Source: an uncultured Clostridia bacterium (GTDB lineage: Bacteria > Bacillota > Clostridia > Christensenellales > Borkfalkiaceae). From it: a stretch of 50,211 nucleotides of DNA. A model generated the notes under the pieces. It had not been told where the DNA came from. It searched no databases and was given only the letters and a program-made list of their open reading frames with translations. The DNA lies in assembly GCA_947589565.1 (NCBI GenBank), contig CANQBW010000005.1:1-50211 (forward strand), written 5' to 3'. This document shows, piece by piece, positions 39,501-50,172 of the stretch (within the stretch, counting starts at the first letter, position 1; the number at the start of each line of letters is the position of its first letter). The position numbers and the translations under genes were made by a program.

Positions 39501-40343
39501 TTAAATTGAAATGAACAGGACGCCGAGCGTATTCTTCCCGCAGTGTCCCGTGATGACGGATCCCGCGACCGTCTCGATGACTTCGTCGAACTCGAAGAGT
39601 TCCTCCACGCACTTCTTGGCAACGTCCACGAGCTTCTTCTCCGCGGAGCTATGGGTGATGAAGGCGCGGGTCTTATCGTAATTCGGATATTGCAGACGAA
39701 GGTCGGAAATGTAGTTCGTGATGCACTTCTCCATGCTCCCGCGGTACTTTTTGTCGGCGTAGAGTTGCCCGTCCCGCATTTCGATGAGGGGATGGATCTT
39801 CAGAAGATTTGCCCCGTACATCTGCATTCTCGAACATCTTCCCCCTTTAAAGAGGTAGTCGAGGCGGTCGGGCACAAAGGAGGTGTTGATCTTCGGCGCG
39901 ATCGCCTGGGTCTCTTCGACGATTTTTTGTGCGTTCTCCCCCGCGTCGCGCAAATCGCAGGCTTTCATGACCATGAGTCCCTGTCCCGAGGAGAGGGCTT
40001 TGCTGTCCACGACGAAGACCTTCTTTTTGAACTTCTTCGCAGCCTCCGCCGCATATTGGTTGGAGGAGGAAGATCTTGCGGATATATTGTAATGGATGAC
40101 CGTCTTACCCTCGTCGACGAGTTTTGCAAAGAACTCCTCGAAATCTGCCGTGCTCGGCGCAGCGGTCTTGGGAAGCTGACCCGTCTTCTCGAAGTAGTCG
40201 AAAATATCCTGCGGACAGATGTTCACGCCGTCCAGATAGGATCTCTCCCCTAAAATGACGGAGAGGGGCATCACCTTGATGTTGCGGCTCTCGCAGAGAG
40301 CCCCCAAGTCACAGGTACTGTCCGTAGTAATTTGTATATCCAT
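39501..40343 (-). CDS. DegV family fatty-acid-binding protein
   Basis: A 280-residue DegV (FakB-like) protein, a family that holds a fatty acid while FakA kinases phosphorylate it. Recognisable parts are TDSTCDL at the N terminus, NISARSSSSNQYAAEA, VDSKALSSGQG, the region DRLDYLFKGGRCSR and the C-terminal GHCGKNTLGVLF. The start follows AAGGAG. The gene lies in the lepB-degV-pepF unit. No fakA is in the window, and the bound lipid cannot be told from sequence. Confidence 0.9.
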   Translation of the reverse strand: MDIQITTDSTCDLGALCESRNIKVMPLSVILGERSYLDGVNICPQDIFDYFEKTGQLPKTAAPSTADFEEFFAKLVDEGKTVIHYNISARSSSSNQYAAEAAKKFKKKVFVVDSKALSSGQGLMVMKACDLRDAGENAQKIVEETQAIAPKINTSFVPDRLDYLFKGGRCSRMQMYGANLLKIHPLIEMRDGQLYADKKYRGSMEKCITNYISDLRLQYPNYDKTRAFITHSSAEKKLVDVAKKCVEELFEFDEVIETVAGSVITGHCGKNTLGVLFISI

Positions 40344-40359
40344 AGAAAACTCCTTAAAA

Positions 40360-40980
40360 TTATTCTTCTGTTTCGGTCTTGCCGCTGCGGAAACGCTCCC
40401 ATTTCGCGATCTGCGCCTTATTTTCGATCGCCCACTTAGGAACGACGCCGACGACGTCCTTGAGTTTGAAACAGCCGACGCTCCGCGAGTCGACGCTGTT
40501 GTTGCGATGGTCGCCCATGAAGAAGATCTCTCCTTCCCCCACGGTGACTTCCCGAAAATCCGCGGTGGGATACTGAGCATAGGGCTCCTCGAGAAGGGAA
40601 AACTCCTCCTCGCCCGCTTTTTTGAGGTAGACGCCCCCCTCTTCGCACTTGACGGTATCTCCCGCGGTCGCAATGACCCGTTTGATGATAAATTCCCCGC
40701 GGAAGGTCGCCCTGTCGCCGTAGGGCGTGACGTCTAAAATGACGACGTCCCCCCGCTCCACCTTTTTATACCACTTGTCGGCATAGAGAATGTCGCCGCT
40801 TTGAAGGGTGTTCTCCATCGAGCCGCCCGACACTTCCACCGTGAAATAGCGGCTGATGAAATTCAGATTGAGAATGAGCGCGATGACGAGAAGAGCGCAG
40901 ATTATAAGAAGTACATAGTCACTCTTGCGGCTCTCCCTTTCATTGAGCATTTTTTGCAATTTTTTCGCGCCTTGCTCCAC
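40360..40980 (-). CDS. lepB: Signal peptidase I
   Basis: Membrane serine-lysine peptidase that removes secretory signal peptides. The 206-residue protein has one transmembrane helix (about 22-45), the nucleophile Ser54 in GGSMENTL, the general base Lys100 in FIIKRVIA, and the box GDHRNNSVDSRSVG. The length fits Gram-positive SPase I. It starts 9 bases after the hydrolase gene and 16 bases before degV. Confidence 0.94.
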   Translation of the reverse strand: MEQGAKKLQKMLNERESRKSDYVLLIICALLVIALILNLNFISRYFTVEVSGGSMENTLQSGDILYADKWYKKVERGDVVILDVTPYGDRATFRGEFIIKRVIATAGDTVKCEEGGVYLKKAGEEEFSLLEEPYAQYPTADFREVTVGEGEIFFMGDHRNNSVDSRSVGCFKLKDVVGVVPKWAIENKAQIAKWERFRSGKTETEE

Positions 40981-44704: not shown

Positions 44705-44725
44705 CGGGCTTTGAGCCCGTTTTTT
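44699..44725. terminator. Bidirectional terminator between dnaD and the fusion-gene operon
   Basis: Six A, stem ACGGGCT/AGCCCGT with a TTG loop, then six T: a symmetric Rho-independent terminator that works on both strands. It separates convergent dnaD (+) and the 44748-49924 genes (-). Confidence 0.9.
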
Positions 44726-44747: not shown

Positions 44748-44918
44748 CTATTTTCTTGTGAATAAAGATCTGAGTTTCTCGATCGTTACAAGATTTTCAT
44801 TTCGTTTCCCTTCGAAGCCGCAAAACGCGGCAAGTTCTTCCTCGGTGAGGGAGACCGTCATGCCCTGCTCGTGGGAAATAGTGGAGAGAATACAACGCTC
44901 TCCGACAAATACTTCCAA
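44748..44918 (-). CDS. Possible small protein behind the fusion enzyme
   Basis: A 56-residue reading frame on the minus strand with coding-like composition, containing MTVSLTEEELAAFCGFEG and ending RSLFTRK. Only a TTG at 44918 or an internal ATG (MTVSL, 37 residues) can start it, and no good ribosome site is seen, so it may be translated by coupling to the fusion gene, whose stop is 23 bases upstream, or be the remnant of a larger gene. The bidirectional terminator follows 22 bases after its stop. I do not recognise a family. Confidence 0.35.
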   Translation of the reverse strand: MEVFVGERCILSTISHEQGMTVSLTEEELAAFCGFEGKRNENLVTIEKLRSLFTRK

Positions 44919-44941
44919 ATCTTCATATAGGATTGTGAAGA

Positions 44942-47900
44942 TTATTTCAGGAAAAACTTGATCAGTTTTTCATTCACCTTTCGATAGGGCTGATAGCGCA
45001 TGGGAAGGTCCAAAAGCGTCGATTTATCGACGATACTTTTATAGTGGCTGAACGTTTCAAAGCCCGTCTTTCCGTGATAGGACCCAAGTCCGCTCGCACC
45101 GAAGCCGCCGAACGGCATATAGGGCGTCGCAAGATGAATGACGACGTCATTGACGCAGCCGCCCCCAAAGCCGATCTCCGTAGTCAATCGCTTGATCCTC
45201 GATTTGTCTGCCGAGAACACATACAGCGCAAGGGGCGCGTCGTTTTCCTTGATATACTTCACAACTTCTTCCTCGTCCTTATAGGTCAAAATCGGCAGGA
45301 CGGGTCCGAAAATTTCCTCCTGCATGACGGCGTCGGCGTATTGCACGCCGTCCAAAACAGTCGGCTCTATTTTCAAGCGCTCCGCGTCCGTCTTTCCGCC
45401 GTGGACGACCTTCGTCTTGTCGATGAGTGCCGAGACGCGGACAAAATGCTTTTCGTTGATCATTTTGCCGTAAGTCGGATTTTCAAGGGGGTTCCTTCCG
45501 AACTGCGCGATGATCTGCTTTTTCAGCTCCGCAAGAAGAGGATCGTGTATCTTTTCCGAGCAATAGATATAGTCGGGCGCGACGCACGTCTGACCGAGAT
45601 TGAGGAATTTCCCCCATACGATCCGCTTTGCGGCAAGTTTTAAATTTGCCGTTTCGTCCACGATACAGGGACTCTTTCCGCCAAGCTCCAACGTCACGGG
45701 AGTCAGCCTCCCCGCTGCTTTTTCATAGACGAGCTGTCCCACTCTCTTGCTCCCTGTAAAGAAAATGTAGTCGAACTTGATTTCCATGAGTTCCCGGTTG
45801 ATCTTCGCGCCGCCGAAGAGCACCGAGACATATTCGGGCGGAAACACGCTGTCGATCACTTCTTTGATCGCCTTGTTGGTGTTCGGCGAATAGGCGCTCA
45901 ATTTCAGCACCACGGTATTGCCCGCCGCGATCGCATCGATGAGAGGGTCCATGGAAAGAAGGAACGGATAGTTCCACGGATTCATGATGAGCACCGTTCC
46001 GTAAGGCGACGGAAGTCGGTAGCTCTTTGAAATTGCCTGGGAGAGCGGGGTTTTGACTCTCTTCGGCTTTGCGAACTTCTTCATATGCTTCAACATAAAG
46101 GAGAGCTCGCTCAATGCAAGCCCCGTCTCGCACATATAGCTCTCGGTCCCGCTCTTGCCTAAATCGGTTTTCAGTCCCTCGTGCAATGCGGGCAAATTCG
46201 CCTTGATTGCAGAATAGAGAGCTTCCAACCTTTTTTTGCGGTGCTTTACAGATAACGTTGCGCCGCTTTCAAAATACTTCCTTTGGCGATTTACGATCGT
46301 GGGAATGTCCGTTTCGTCGACATTCTCGCCGTGCAATTTCAGATACATTTCTTTGAGTTTTTCTCTATCCCATAAGACGGGGACAGGATACAAGGGATTT
46401 GCCTCTTTTTCGGCGTAAAAAGCAAGCTCTTCGAGATCGCCGCGGCGAATTTCTTGAAAAGTGCTGCCAATGCCGAATTTCGCGTTCATTTCCTCGATTT
46501 TCCCAATGACAGCCTCCGCGCCCTGCGAATAGGACACATTCTTGTCGATAAGTCCGCAGAAAAGGGCGATTTTCCAAAGTTTCTTATGAACAGCTTTGCC
46601 GTATTCCCGCAAAACGACGGGCAGAATGACCGCGTTGGCAAGTCCGTGCGCAATGTTGTATTTTCCGCCGAGCGCGTGCGCGAGCGCGTGAACATAGCCG
46701 ACATACGCCTTGCTGAACGCTCTCCCCGCCTTGTGCGACGCGAGGAGCATTGCCTTTTGCGCCGCTTCTTCGCCTTGATAGGACTTTTCGAGATTTTCAA
46801 ATACGAGCTTGATCGCCTCCAGGGCGTCTTTGCGCGTCTCTCCGTTTCCGCCCCTTCCGATATACGCCTCGATCGCATGGGTGAGCGCGTCCATGCCCGT
46901 GGTCGCTACAATGTGTTTGGGGAGCGATTCGGTCAGGCTCTCATCCAAAACGGCGTAAGAGGGAATGAGCGGAAAGTCGTTGATCGCATATTTGTGGTGG
47001 GTGGCAGAGTCGACGACGACCGCGGCAAGCGTCGTTTCGCTTCCCGTCCCCGCCGTCGTGGGAACGGCAATCAGCAAGGGAATTGCCTTTCTCACCTTCA
47101 AAATTCCGCGCATTTTATTAAGCGACTTCTCGGGTCTTGCAACCAAGGCGCCGACGCATTTCGCGCAGTCCATCGGAGAGCCGCCGCCAAAGCCGATGAG
47201 GGAATCGCAGCCCTCGCTCCTATAAAGCTTTAACGCTTCCTCTACATTGTCCGTTGTGGGATTGGCGACTGTACCGTGATAGAGGGTTATGGAGATCCCC
47301 TCCGTTTTCAAGGAATTTATAAGCGGCTCACAAAGTCCGAGCTCAAAGATCGTTTGATCGGTGACGATGAGCGGGTGCGTCTTTTTGTTGGCTCTCAAAA
47401 CCTCGGGAATATCTGTGAGCTTTTCTATAATTTTCGGGTCTTTATAAGGCAGCAGCGGGAGAGCAAGTTTCAGTATCCCCTGAAAAATACGGCAGTACAG
47501 TCTTTTGAAGAAGTGGACCCCCTTTTCGGCGTGCAAAATCAGGGAAAATGCCAGAAGAATCTGTGCGGGATAATAGGTCGCAAGGCACAAAATGCGCGGA
47601 AGCGCATTTGCAGCAGAGAACATATCGATGAGGAGCATTAAATCGGATGTAAAGAAGAGCACACTGCCGAGCGCAAGGAGGACGGCAAGCGCGGTCCCCT
47701 TTCTTAAATCTGCAAGCGCCTTTCCCACCATGAGCGAGAGAATGAGGGCATACAAAACGCACACGATCTCCATGAGGCTCCCGCCGAACGCAAAGATGGG
47801 CGCAAGCGTGATGAAGAGAACGGACGGGACAAAAATCACGGCGGAGACGACCAGATCGGCAAGGCGAAACCCGAAGGAAGTGTAATATGCCGCGACATAG

Positions 47901-48193
47901 AACACATGCGCCGCGGCAAACAGCGCTGCGCCGGTCAAAAACCACACTTCCCCCGTGTTGTAAATGAAGATATCCCCCGCCATTGCAAAAAGACAGCCGA
48001 TGGACATGAGGATCGGAAAGGATCTCTTTGCCTTACATTTGAACGCATAAAAGAGGTTCACAAGTGCGACAAACGCAAAGCACGCGCTCGCTGCGCTCTT
48101 TAACCAGAGTGCGGGACTTATGATCAGCATCACATCAAACGCGATCACGCCCGCCAACAACAAGAAATCGATCAAATAAACTGTTCTTTTCAT
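44942..48193 (-). CDS. YhhN lysoplasmalogenase - iron ADH - ALDH triple fusion
   Basis: A 1083-residue protein with three enzyme domains. Residues 1-225: about eight helices with the YhhN/TMEM86 marks AGDIFIY (72-78), SDLMLL (183-188) and YYPAQ (207-211); this family hydrolyses the vinyl ether of lysoplasmalogens to free aldehyde. Residues 240-625: iron-type alcohol dehydrogenase with GGGSP (336-340) and metal ligands Asp435, His439, His502 and His516. Residues 635-1083: aldehyde dehydrogenase with NPWN (738-741), FTGSK, Glu836 (LELGGK) and Cys870 (GQTCVAP), and the C-terminal end of class-3 fatty aldehyde dehydrogenases. The domain order is the reverse of AdhE. All catalytic residues I can check are present. 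It starts 3 bases after the amide hydrolase stop. A role in plasmalogen breakdown is an inference from the domains. Confidence 0.9.
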   Translation of the reverse strand: MKRTVYLIDFLLLAGVIAFDVMLIISPALWLKSAASACFAFVALVNLFYAFKCKAKRSFPILMSIGCLFAMAGDIFIYNTGEVWFLTGAALFAAAHVFYVAAYYTSFGFRLADLVVSAVIFVPSVLFITLAPIFAFGGSLMEIVCVLYALILSLMVGKALADLRKGTALAVLLALGSVLFFTSDLMLLIDMFSAANALPRILCLATYYPAQILLAFSLILHAEKGVHFFKRLYCRIFQGILKLALPLLPYKDPKIIEKLTDIPEVLRANKKTHPLIVTDQTIFELGLCEPLINSLKTEGISITLYHGTVANPTTDNVEEALKLYRSEGCDSLIGFGGGSPMDCAKCVGALVARPEKSLNKMRGILKVRKAIPLLIAVPTTAGTGSETTLAAVVVDSATHHKYAINDFPLIPSYAVLDESLTESLPKHIVATTGMDALTHAIEAYIGRGGNGETRKDALEAIKLVFENLEKSYQGEEAAQKAMLLASHKAGRAFSKAYVGYVHALAHALGGKYNIAHGLANAVILPVVLREYGKAVHKKLWKIALFCGLIDKNVSYSQGAEAVIGKIEEMNAKFGIGSTFQEIRRGDLEELAFYAEKEANPLYPVPVLWDREKLKEMYLKLHGENVDETDIPTIVNRQRKYFESGATLSVKHRKKRLEALYSAIKANLPALHEGLKTDLGKSGTESYMCETGLALSELSFMLKHMKKFAKPKRVKTPLSQAISKSYRLPSPYGTVLIMNPWNYPFLLSMDPLIDAIAAGNTVVLKLSAYSPNTNKAIKEVIDSVFPPEYVSVLFGGAKINRELMEIKFDYIFFTGSKRVGQLVYEKAAGRLTPVTLELGGKSPCIVDETANLKLAAKRIVWGKFLNLGQTCVAPDYIYCSEKIHDPLLAELKKQIIAQFGRNPLENPTYGKMINEKHFVRVSALIDKTKVVHGGKTDAERLKIEPTVLDGVQYADAVMQEEIFGPVLPILTYKDEEEVVKYIKENDAPLALYVFSADKSRIKRLTTEIGFGGGCVNDVVIHLATPYMPFGGFGASGLGSYHGKTGFETFSHYKSIVDKSTLLDLPMRYQPYRKVNEKLIKFFLK

Positions 48194-48196
48194 TTT

Positions 48197-49450
48197 TTAT
48201 TTTCCTGCGACTGTCTTCAATTCTCCCGTAGCAAAAGAATACTCATAAATCGCCGTGGAATCGTCGAAGTTTTCATTGGAGACCCAAAGTACTGTTTTTT
48301 GCGTCAGGTTATAAATGACGCTATGTACGGTACAGCCGTCCCCCTTCCCCCAACTTCTTCTGCCGACGGTTTTGAGGATCTCCATCGCCGCCCACTCGTC
48401 CTTTACGACGCCGTCGGTTTTGGAGAGGTCGGAATAAATTTGATCATACCGATCAAGTCCCGCCTTATCCTCGTCCTTGGTATAATACCCGGGCTGAATG
48501 ATGAAGTTCGTGATCCATTGAAAGTCGCTCTCTCCCTCATGATCTCCGATCTTCTCATCCCCCGTGTTATAGGTGACGACAAGTTCGCGGGCGGAGCCGT
48601 CGTTGTCCGTCTCGTCCGTGCCGCCCACGGGGACCCATTCGAGAATGGCGCTTTTTCCCGTCGCGTCTGCAATCATATAGTGGAAAGAGGTGTTTGCCGA
48701 GTCGTGAAGATTATATTGCTTGACAAGCTCGACCGCCTCATCTACATCGTCCGCATAGTCGAGGATCATGCGAAGCATGGTCGTCGAGGTGATGTCGGGC
48801 TTATTCGGATCGTTCTGGTCGGTCGCGACGGCGTTGTTGTTTTCGGGTTCACCCTGATAGGTCATATAGATGCCGCAGCTCACACCCGCATCGTTGATCC
48901 CGTCGAGGGGCGCAAACGGAGCGGCAAGGCAAGTGATCTTATTCATCAGCCCTTCCACGTTTTTCTCCGTGCTAATTCCGACATAGTTCAGATCAACCGT
49001 TGAGAAGGACGCGTGTCTGCCGCCGCCGGGGTTTGTGAGAGTCAGGCAGACGTTTGTCTTATCGAAGTCATAATTGCGGGCGAAGAGCCTATCCCCGCTC
49101 TCGGTCACCGCCGTAAAGGAGGAACAGCCGATATCGCTCTCCTTGATGCCCATATCCATGAGTCCGCGGGTAATTTTATTGGAGATGAATGCAATGAGTT
49201 CGGAGTCCTTCTTCGCGCCGCCCTCCTCAAGGAAATCGTCGAAATAGAACCCGCCGCTCACTTTCATGCTGTAGACTGCGCCGTCCTTATGCGCATCGTT
49301 GCGGTCTCGAAGCAACGTGAAGCTCGAAACAGAAGAGAACTCGTTGTGCCAGATCCCGAAGAACACCGAAACGAGAACGATGATCAATGCGAAAATGACC
49401 GCAAGCAGAATGCAGAGGGTGCGCAGCAAGATTTTTTTGGTTTTTGTCAT
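48197..49450 (-). CDS. Membrane-anchored linear amide C-N hydrolase
   Basis: A 417-residue Ntn-type hydrolase of the choloylglycine/acyl-CoA:6-APA acyltransferase group. An N-terminal hydrophobic helix (about 7-33) anchors or exports it. The likely nucleophile is Cys109 in IGCSSF, where cleavage between Gly and Cys would expose it, as in the C45 acyltransferases; RNYDFD at 125-130 is the conserved Arg/Asp motif. Such enzymes cut fatty acyl or bile acyl amides. It lies between marR and the fusion enzyme, with a GGAG ribosome site 24 bases after marR, so an N-acyl lipid is a plausible substrate (inference). Confidence 0.8.
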   Translation of the reverse strand: MTKTKKILLRTLCILLAVIFALIIVLVSVFFGIWHNEFSSVSSFTLLRDRNDAHKDGAVYSMKVSGGFYFDDFLEEGGAKKDSELIAFISNKITRGLMDMGIKESDIGCSSFTAVTESGDRLFARNYDFDKTNVCLTLTNPGGGRHASFSTVDLNYVGISTEKNVEGLMNKITCLAAPFAPLDGINDAGVSCGIYMTYQGEPENNNAVATDQNDPNKPDITSTTMLRMILDYADDVDEAVELVKQYNLHDSANTSFHYMIADATGKSAILEWVPVGGTDETDNDGSARELVVTYNTGDEKIGDHEGESDFQWITNFIIQPGYYTKDEDKAGLDRYDQIYSDLSKTDGVVKDEWAAMEILKTVGRRSWGKGDGCTVHSVIYNLTQKTVLWVSNENFDDSTAIYEYSFATGELKTVAGK

Positions 49451-49474: not shown

Positions 49475-49924
49475 TTATTGATTGTTTTTTATCAATTCCT
49501 TATAATATGCTCTCAAATTTTCATTGATCACATCGAGCGATCGATAAAAGAAGATCCTCTCCTCTTCCGTAAAGTCCACGCTGCCCGCGGCAACTGCCCT
49601 CTGAGCACACGCACAGATATTGCTTGTAAATTGCTTTCCTTCTTCCGTCAGTTTGATGGTCGAATAGCGCCGATTGGCGTCATAGATGACATAGCCCTTT
49701 TCCTGCATCATTTTCAGCGCGCGCGAAATCGCCGCCTTGTCTTCGAGCGTCAATTCCGAGAGCTCCTTCGCCGTAAGCCCCTGCGGATTCTTGTTGAGAT
49801 AGTAACTGCACATCACATGAATGGGCTTCAAGCCGTATTTTTCGATTTCAAAGGTCTTAATTTTTTGAACAAGCTTGTTCAGCCGCAAGATCGACAGCGT
49901 AAAATCCACAAATAAATCTTCCAT
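49475..49924 (-). CDS. MarR-family transcriptional regulator
   Basis: A 149-residue winged-helix regulator with the MarR core: LTAKELSELTLEDKAAISRALKMM, cut at its key part ELSELTLEDKAAISRAL, then GYVIYD and YSTIKLTEEG. It is the first gene of the operon with the amide hydrolase and the triple-fusion enzyme. Two near-identical inverted sites flank and overlap its promoter, so autorepression, relieved by a lipid or phenolic ligand, is likely by family precedent. The ligand is not known. Confidence 0.9.
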   Translation of the reverse strand: MEDLFVDFTLSILRLNKLVQKIKTFEIEKYGLKPIHVMCSYYLNKNPQGLTAKELSELTLEDKAAISRALKMMQEKGYVIYDANRRYSTIKLTEEGKQFTSNICACAQRAVAAGSVDFTEEERIFFYRSLDVINENLRAYYKELIKNNQ

Positions 49925-49936
49925 AAAAAGCCCCTT

Positions 49937-49985
49937 AGTTGATTAGTCAACCAAAGTATACCCTTTCTTGGTTGATTTGTCAACT
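49937..49985 (-). promoter_or_regulatory. marR operon promoter with paired operator
   Basis: Minus-strand TTGACA (49983-49978), 17 bases, TATACT (49960-49955), start near 49948. The sites AGTTGATTAGTCAACCAA (49937-49954) and TTGGTTGATTTGTCAACT (49968-49985) form one large inverted repeat; each half is itself nearly palindromic. One overlaps the -35 box and the other the start region, the classic layout for MarR repression. Confidence 0.8.
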
Positions 49986-50134: not shown

Positions 50135-50172
50135 TTGACAAGAATAATACCATATAGTATAATTCTATATGG
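50135..50172 (+). promoter_or_regulatory. Consensus promoter with palindromic operator
   Basis: TTGACA (50135-50140), 17 bases, TATAAT (50158-50163): perfect consensus. The palindrome CCATATAG-N7-CTATATGG (50150-50172) encloses the -10 box, so a repressor bound there would block initiation. Confidence 0.8.

Follow-up and report, generated by a model that had tools for sequence, protein, structure and literature searches.

Lysoplasmalogenases of the YhhN/TMEM86 family (PF07947), among them L. pneumophila YhhN, MtbYhhN and TMEM86A/B, have been described as single-domain proteins with eight transmembrane (TM) helices, and the papers on them, which like all literature here are cited from excerpts, report assays coupled either to added alcohol dehydrogenase (ADH; PMC9052158) or to aldehyde oxidation (PMC11994398). 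Here we analyse a window of 50,211 nucleotides from an uncultured Clostridia bacterium of the gut (contig CANQBW010000005.1 of assembly GCA_947589565.1), in which a single gene on the minus strand (44942-48193) encodes a YhhN domain with an iron-type ADH (Fe-ADH) and a class-3 aldehyde dehydrogenase (ALDH) attached at its C-terminal end, so that the chain itself includes a relative of each kind of coupling enzyme. In the titles and abstract openings listed by searches on YhhN, lysoplasmalogenase and plasmalogen degradation we found no description of a YhhN-ADH-ALDH fusion. Our preferred reading, which in its entirety we hold to be about evenly balanced between right and wrong, is that the protein is a MarR-controlled, membrane-anchored fatty-aldehyde salvage enzyme, with YhhN acting on lysoplasmalogen or a close relative and the resulting fatty acid passing to Fak. 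That the fusion is a lipid-tail or fatty-aldehyde salvage enzyme is likely, and lysoplasmalogen is a plausible substrate.

The open reading frame (ORF) of the fusion runs uninterrupted from its ATG through 1083 codons. As a preliminary description of this DNA had proposed, Pfam matches all three parts of the protein: YhhN at residues 39-218 (E 7e-22; 78.4 bits against a gathering cut-off of 25.6), Fe-ADH (PF00465) at residues 258-417 (E 2e-42) followed by ADH_Fe_C (PF25137) at residues 430-617 (E 6e-39), and Aldedh at residues 624-1054 (E 2e-89). The NCBIfam models listed, 25 of the 59 that matched, each scored below their own cut-off, and therefore no named specific enzyme fits the fusion. 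An AlphaFold2 model of the whole protein has a mean predicted local distance difference test score (pLDDT) of 87.1 and a predicted template modelling score of 0.67, with a low-confidence stretch at residues 1012-1037. The gene is single-copy in its own genome, and the same architecture recurs in many Clostridia-type genomes, the record titles of the named loci being mostly those of gut metagenomes. All three domains are present in 31 of the 120 database relatives listed, and YhhN with ADH in three more; among 64 named-record loci, 10 are single-frame triple fusions (some cut at a contig end and one needing TGA to be read as Trp), in three a separate ALDH gene comes after YhhN-ADH, and one is cut inside the ADH. 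Copies that span all three domains are 49-87% identical to the query. A frameshift or assembly join, which the preliminary description had named as a way in which its proposal could fail, is ruled out by these independent copies in other genomes, and we conclude that the fusion architecture and its conservation are real.

The YhhN domain (residues 1-222; 47528-48193, minus strand) has eight predicted TM helices. Eight catalytic positions, K, G, D, H, G, S, D and Y, are proposed for TMEM86A/B in the excerpt of PMC11994398, and alanine at most of them lowered activity to less than 10%. It can be seen that all eight residue types are present in the query in the same order and with near-identical spacing, as K32, G73, D74, H96, G176, S183, D184 and Y207, each at a column conserved among 27 aligned YhhN sequences, E. 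coli YhhN being one of them; the pairing with the published list is by order and spacing, the alignment having been made without a TMEM86 sequence. Modelled alone, the domain reached a pLDDT of 95.8 and adopts a 7TM-like fold with one additional helix. In the model of the whole protein, eight long helices (residues 2-222) are followed by an extra helix (residues 228-247) and then by both dehydrogenase domains. The Lys and Arg residues of the interhelix loops are confined to the side that holds both termini, and so both dehydrogenases should face the cytoplasm in a predicted N-in/C-in topology, which is also that given for MtbYhhN (PMC9052158). The extra helix (47453-47512, minus strand) is amphipathic, its best 18-residue window (start within 226-231) having a hydrophobic moment above all 819 windows of residues 248-1083. 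It belongs to a conserved leader that is present too in unfused members of the same ADH subfamily; since the leader is kept in relatives without YhhN, membrane association of the ADH may be older than its join to YhhN.

Alignments and structure comparison agree with the Pfam assignments of both dehydrogenases. The Fe-ADH (residues ~250-620; 46334-47446, minus strand) combines the PF00465/PF25137 matches with an Asp and three His (D435, H439, H502 and H516) at the metal-site positions. Its nearest solved relatives are ZmADH2, B. methanolicus methanol dehydrogenase and FucO, from which it differs in sequence (31-34% identity), in its conserved amphipathic leader and in being fused on both sides. 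The ALDH (residues 626-1083; 44945-46318, minus strand) is closest to ALDH3, its nearest solved relatives including S. aureus AldH, ALDH3A1 and human fatty aldehyde dehydrogenase (FALDH); identity to ALDH3 enzymes, ALDH3A2 and S. aureus AldH among them, is ~40-45% in structural alignment, and the Asn, Glu and Cys (N741, E836 and C870) are conserved. FALDH is held in the membrane by a C-terminal anchor, whereas the ALDH described here lies behind an Fe-ADH and would be attached to the membrane through YhhN. The ADH and ALDH residues named above are invariant across an alignment of 43 relatives, of which 29 have YhhN and 14 do not, in agreement with the earlier proposal that the catalytic residues of both dehydrogenases are intact; we take the ADH residues to be metal ligands, from FucO numbering, and the ALDH residues to be catalytic, on the basis of alignments together with standard numbering. 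An ALDH-superfamily domain is also paired with Fe-ADH in AdhE, where the ALDH is CoA-acylating and N-terminal to the Fe-ADH. In the fusion the order is the opposite and the ALDH is of class 3, which rules out an ordinary AdhE and bears out the earlier suggestion that this fusion is independent of it. Of three further Fe-ADH matches in the same genome, one lies inside a separate AdhE-sized ORF of 869 residues.

We infer that the fusion is an active enzyme that passes aldehyde from one domain to the next. In such a mechanism the eight-helix YhhN domain would hydrolyse the vinyl-ether bond of lysoplasmalogen, or a close relative, within the membrane, and the tethered dehydrogenases would catch the released fatty aldehyde at the cytoplasmic face. 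The ALDH would convert it to fatty acid with NAD(P)+ and the Fe-ADH would convert it to fatty alcohol with NADH, such that the two would jointly remove the aldehyde with no net cofactor demand. The fatty acid would then be taken up by FakB and FakA (a DegV-family protein and a kinase) for reuse in phospholipids.

The distribution of the domains indicates how the fusion came about. The 8000 best-word candidates with lengths of 0.55-1.75 times that of the query included 27 proteins found to have a YhhN region, and of these all 27 have the Fe-ADH and 19 the ALDH. When 128 YhhN domains were placed in a quick tree, the 51 that are joined to ADH formed one clade with a Shimodaira-Hasegawa-like approximate likelihood ratio test value of 100 and a stem of 1.03. 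These 51 include two that a length cut had classed as solo (L041, which is recoded, and L054, which is cut at a contig end), and two labelled as fused that fall outside the clade (L175 and L176) are not ADH fusions. As the joined domains form one clade, the YhhN-ADH join probably arose once. In a FastTree phylogeny of the ADH (184 rows) the fused forms are scattered over several clades among unfused ones, and the sequences look as though a single join was followed by losses or transfer. The possibility that the fusion is an accidental or non-functional join of neighbouring genes has in its favour that one-gene and two-gene versions of the parts exist, the latter comprising YhhN-ADH then ALDH (L050, L051, L056 and L170) and also ADH then ALDH; however, we consider it extremely improbable given that the catalytic residues are conserved, that the frames remain full-length over the whole range of identities, and that the joined YhhN domains are one clade on a long stem. 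One copy (L041:8001-11270), from a record titled Mycoplasmataceae, needs its four TGA codons to be read as Trp in order to be a full triple fusion, which suggests transfer into a TGA-recoding lineage. Two frames of other architecture were also seen: a 904-residue Lipase_3 protein with a C-terminal YhhN (L176:5408-8122, minus strand; genome G125), which is a second fusion of YhhN to a lipid enzyme and lies outside the ADH-joined clade, and a 916-residue frame (L178:7809-10559, minus strand) with a partial PfkB kinase match ahead of the ADH, which may be a further fusion or the result of a missing stop.

The fusion is the third gene of a one-strand operon, behind a MarR-family regulator (49475-49924, minus strand) and an N-terminal nucleophile amidohydrolase of the CBAH/AAT type (48197-49450, minus strand), both recognised as ORFs with Pfam matches. 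The regulator and the amidohydrolase are 24 nt apart, and 3 nt separate the amidohydrolase stop from the fusion start. The amidohydrolase has an N-terminal hydrophobic segment, matches the C45 proenzyme model only below the model's cut-off and has no PDB sequence relative at E 0.01. Ahead of the operon a scan detected a promoter-like sequence, TTGACA-17-TATACT (49955-49983, minus strand; 11/12 positions), and a pattern search placed two operator copies at it, GTTGACAAATCAAC (49971-49984, minus strand) overlapping the -35 element and GTTGACTAATCAAC (49938-49951, minus strand) just past the -10 element. The exact pattern GTTGANNAATCAAC occurs at two sites in the whole assembly, both at this promoter, and the reversed control at none; with up to one mismatch there are 3 matches in the window (two of them being both strands of one site) versus 0.18 in shuffled sequences. 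The MarR protein may be predicted to bind this putative operator pair and to control the operon through it. By gene order the operon resembles the FabT-FakAB system, whose regulator gene also leads its own operon (PMC13046290, in the part consulted) and whose FakB has a counterpart in the DegV/FakB partner of some fusion relatives; unlike that system, the fusion operon sits with cleavage and aldehyde genes and not with a fab operon.

Upstream sequence of 700 nt or more is available for 74 distinct loci. A MarR gene of the same subfamily lies upstream in 17 of them (one divergent), that is in 11 of the 17 loci with YhhN versus 6 of the 57 without, and the strict operator is found upstream in 14 (9 of 17 with YhhN, 5 of 57 without). 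A cluster count over 89 loci, duplicates included, gave 17 with MarR and 9 with the amidohydrolase; the exact operator stands at the MarR start in 15 of these 17 MarR loci (14 of 16 when the duplicate L153 is left aside), L049 and L087 being the only ones without it. Operon and operator are thus conserved in part of the fusion family. As to the remainder of the window, a likely bidirectional terminator hairpin with A/T-run flanks (44705-44719, unstranded) was read directly from the letters downstream of the operon and is not among the features listed by the scanner; a short frame of ~60 codons (about 44750-44930, minus strand) lies between the fusion stop and this hairpin. A DegV/FakB-like gene (39501-40673) lies 4.3 kb past the end of the operon and shares its strand, and near the window end the other strand carries a sigma-70-like promoter that matches at all 12/12 positions (50135-50163, plus).

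Genes of the DegV family recur at the operator in relatives. In L040 and in L155 (genome G019) MarR and the fusion have a DegV gene between them, in L253 and L284 the same operator is followed at once by DegV, and in G186 (L286) and G198 (L296) it is followed first by MarR and then by DegV, with an amidohydrolase after DegV in G186. These DegV genes were called with Pfam PF02645 (L040, L155 and L253) or by BLAST to the L253 DegV (L284, L286 and L296). FakA (TIGR03599) was found in all nine genomes checked. In other Firmicutes DegV proteins are the FakB fatty-acid carriers (PMC10138225, as excerpted), and the DegV links are our best clue that fatty acid is the product.

YhhN and the dehydrogenases also occur together outside the fusion. 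We scored 151 genomes of the order, tool-drawn at a completeness of at least 85%, with thresholds of E 1e-72 for the ADH subfamily, 1e-100 for the ALDH subfamily, 1e-6 for YhhN and 1e-30 for PF09989, a marker of the plasmalogen synthesis protein PlsA; positives numbered 60, 36, 81 and 53, respectively. ADH or ALDH and YhhN were both present in 63 genomes, the subfamily only in 24, YhhN only in 18 and neither in 46 (odds ratio (OR) 6.7, p 8e-8). Without the five fused genomes the counts are 58/24/18/46 (OR 6.2), and at genus level they are 35/8/12/25 (OR 6.9, p 1e-4), the p values being too small because the Fisher tests disregard phylogeny. The co-occurrence is mostly among unfused genes and so supports a fatty-aldehyde salvage module. 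The coupling of YhhN to the dehydrogenases put forward in the preliminary description is therefore supported beyond the fusion itself by the single clade, by the unfused co-occurrence and, in part of the relatives, by an operon and operator shared with genes for fatty-acid handling, while the substrate and the direction of the dehydrogenases that it assumed are still matters of prediction.

Several observations weigh against our preferred reading, and those given from here on concern the need for YhhN, the source of the substrate and the reach of the regulator. The co-occurrence lies partly between families of the order and carries no phylogenetic correction. Within the genus, an ADH or ALDH relative (E 1e-60 or better) is present in 21 of 37 genomes and YhhN in 4, every one within this fusion. 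YhhN has also been lost in the close relative L038, and YhhN together with ALDH in L154 and L159; in the ADH tree L038/L153 (one gene; ADH-ALDH only) and L154/L159 (ADH only) adjoin the query, which suggests that these losses were recent. As such relatives keep their dehydrogenases, these must have a use without YhhN. A real, if lesser, possibility is accordingly that the protein belongs to a general fatty alcohol and aldehyde module, in which the Fe-ADH would turn fatty alcohol into aldehyde and the ALDH would turn aldehyde into acid for FakB, with YhhN acting on another enol-ether or lyso-ether lipid or serving mainly as a membrane platform. Of the 184 rows of the tree, sampled by query similarity and length, 83 are YhhN-less ADH-ALDH fusions, more than any other group; the amphipathic ADH leader is conserved without YhhN, PlsA is missing from three fusion genomes, and no separate YhhN gene adjoins an unfused ADH or ALDH in the flanks fetched; in G091, however, YhhN and the ADH share a contig and a strand at a distance of ~4.5 kb, and in G080 they are ~10 kb apart. 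However, a mere platform would not need the YhhN residues that are conserved in the aligned fusions, and YhhN co-occurs with the dehydrogenase subfamilies even when unfused.

The source of the substrate is the second difficulty for a salvage enzyme acting on lysoplasmalogen. PF09989 was detected in this genome and in 36 of the 37 genus genomes, among them the remaining three with YhhN (G009, G019 and G023), and also in G061. Across the order, YhhN and PF09989 were both present in 21 genomes, YhhN only in 60, PF09989 only in 32 and neither in 38 (OR 0.42), which refutes the idea that YhhN tracks endogenous plasmalogen synthesis. The OR for ADH was 0.26; ALDH alone points the other way (both 22, ALDH only 14, PF09989 only 31, neither 84; OR 4.3). 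The argument from endogenous plasmalogens made in the preliminary description thus finds no support across relatives. It had also allowed that fusion genomes without plasmalogens would tell against it, and this was found in part: PF09989 (E 1e-30) and PF01869 (E 1e-3) are absent from the YhhN-ADH fusion genomes G155, G167 and G179, which are 98-100% complete. Since PlsA-like genes are not tracked by YhhN or ADH and three fusion genomes lack them, the substrate may not be a plasmalogen, or it may be foreign; if YhhN of these three is a lysoplasmalogenase, it probably draws its substrate from outside.

The same data bear on the idea that the fusion feeds or edits the cell's own plasmalogens, by clearing aldehyde side products or by supplying chains to PlsA/PlsR-type reductases of the same regulon, which we regard as unlikely. 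This genome has a PlsA-like gene, a single frame of more than 1000 codons that matches BcrAD twice and also DUF2229, and the adjoining ORF is PlsR by position only (367 residues to the contig end; DUF2229 at 20.4 bits, below cut-off); the pair is in line with the C. perfringens plsA-plsR arrangement, a two-gene operon (PMC12838417, as excerpted). In G061 and G280 the same palindromic operator precedes operons of DegV, DUF2229, HGD-like and BcrAD-type genes related to split PlsA/PlsR (L253:306-4143 and L284:2547-6449); G280 also has MarR, amidohydrolase, YhhN-ADH and ALDH in this order, and each of its two operons has two operators 58 bp apart. The positive association of the ALDH subfamily with PF09989 would fit as well, as would the use of long-chain aldehydes by bacteria for plasmalogen synthesis, reported in the excerpt of PMC9702350. 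Set against this, PlsA-like genes are present in nearly all the genus genomes regardless of YhhN, and the operator is shared with split reductases in two genomes of one genus only.

Regulation by MarR, the third point, is also not uniform. The exact operator was found in 34 of 121 family genomes and in 7 of 16 chosen genomes; the 9 negatives include four fusion genomes, G009, G167, G179 and, with its fusion truncated at a contig end, G023. In G155 its single site is on a different contig from the fusion. We opened 19 regions around operator matches (3 + 16), most of them picked for T or C at position 6. A related MarR, DegV, ADH or ALDH gene is present in seven (L253, L283-L286, L294 and L296) and in none of the other 12 (L254, L255, L287-L293, L295, L297 and L298), so the motif alone is unspecific. 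As the operator is absent from distant fusion genomes, the regulatory link is limited to part of the family.

A wider reading, which we consider doubtful and which is weakened by that same absence, is that gut anaerobes possess a regulon for recycling vinyl-ether lipids. One MarR operator would there govern a cofactor-balanced lysoplasmalogenase and aldehyde-dismutating machine, the amidohydrolase and a fatty-acid carrier, joined in some species by PlsA/PlsR-type reductases, and species without PlsA would use plasmalogens of the host or of neighbours. If this were true, the making and unmaking of vinyl-ether tails would be under joint control, and bacteria would have a dedicated route for recycling vinyl-ether lipids. 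Genes for plasmalogen synthesis are now known, but in the literature searched the breakdown of plasmalogens by anaerobic bacteria is little described. The fusion locus groups candidate enzymes, a regulator and an operator, so that the question can be addressed with one purified protein, and it gives a hint that plasmalogens from host or diet may be consumed even by bacteria that have no known genes for making them.

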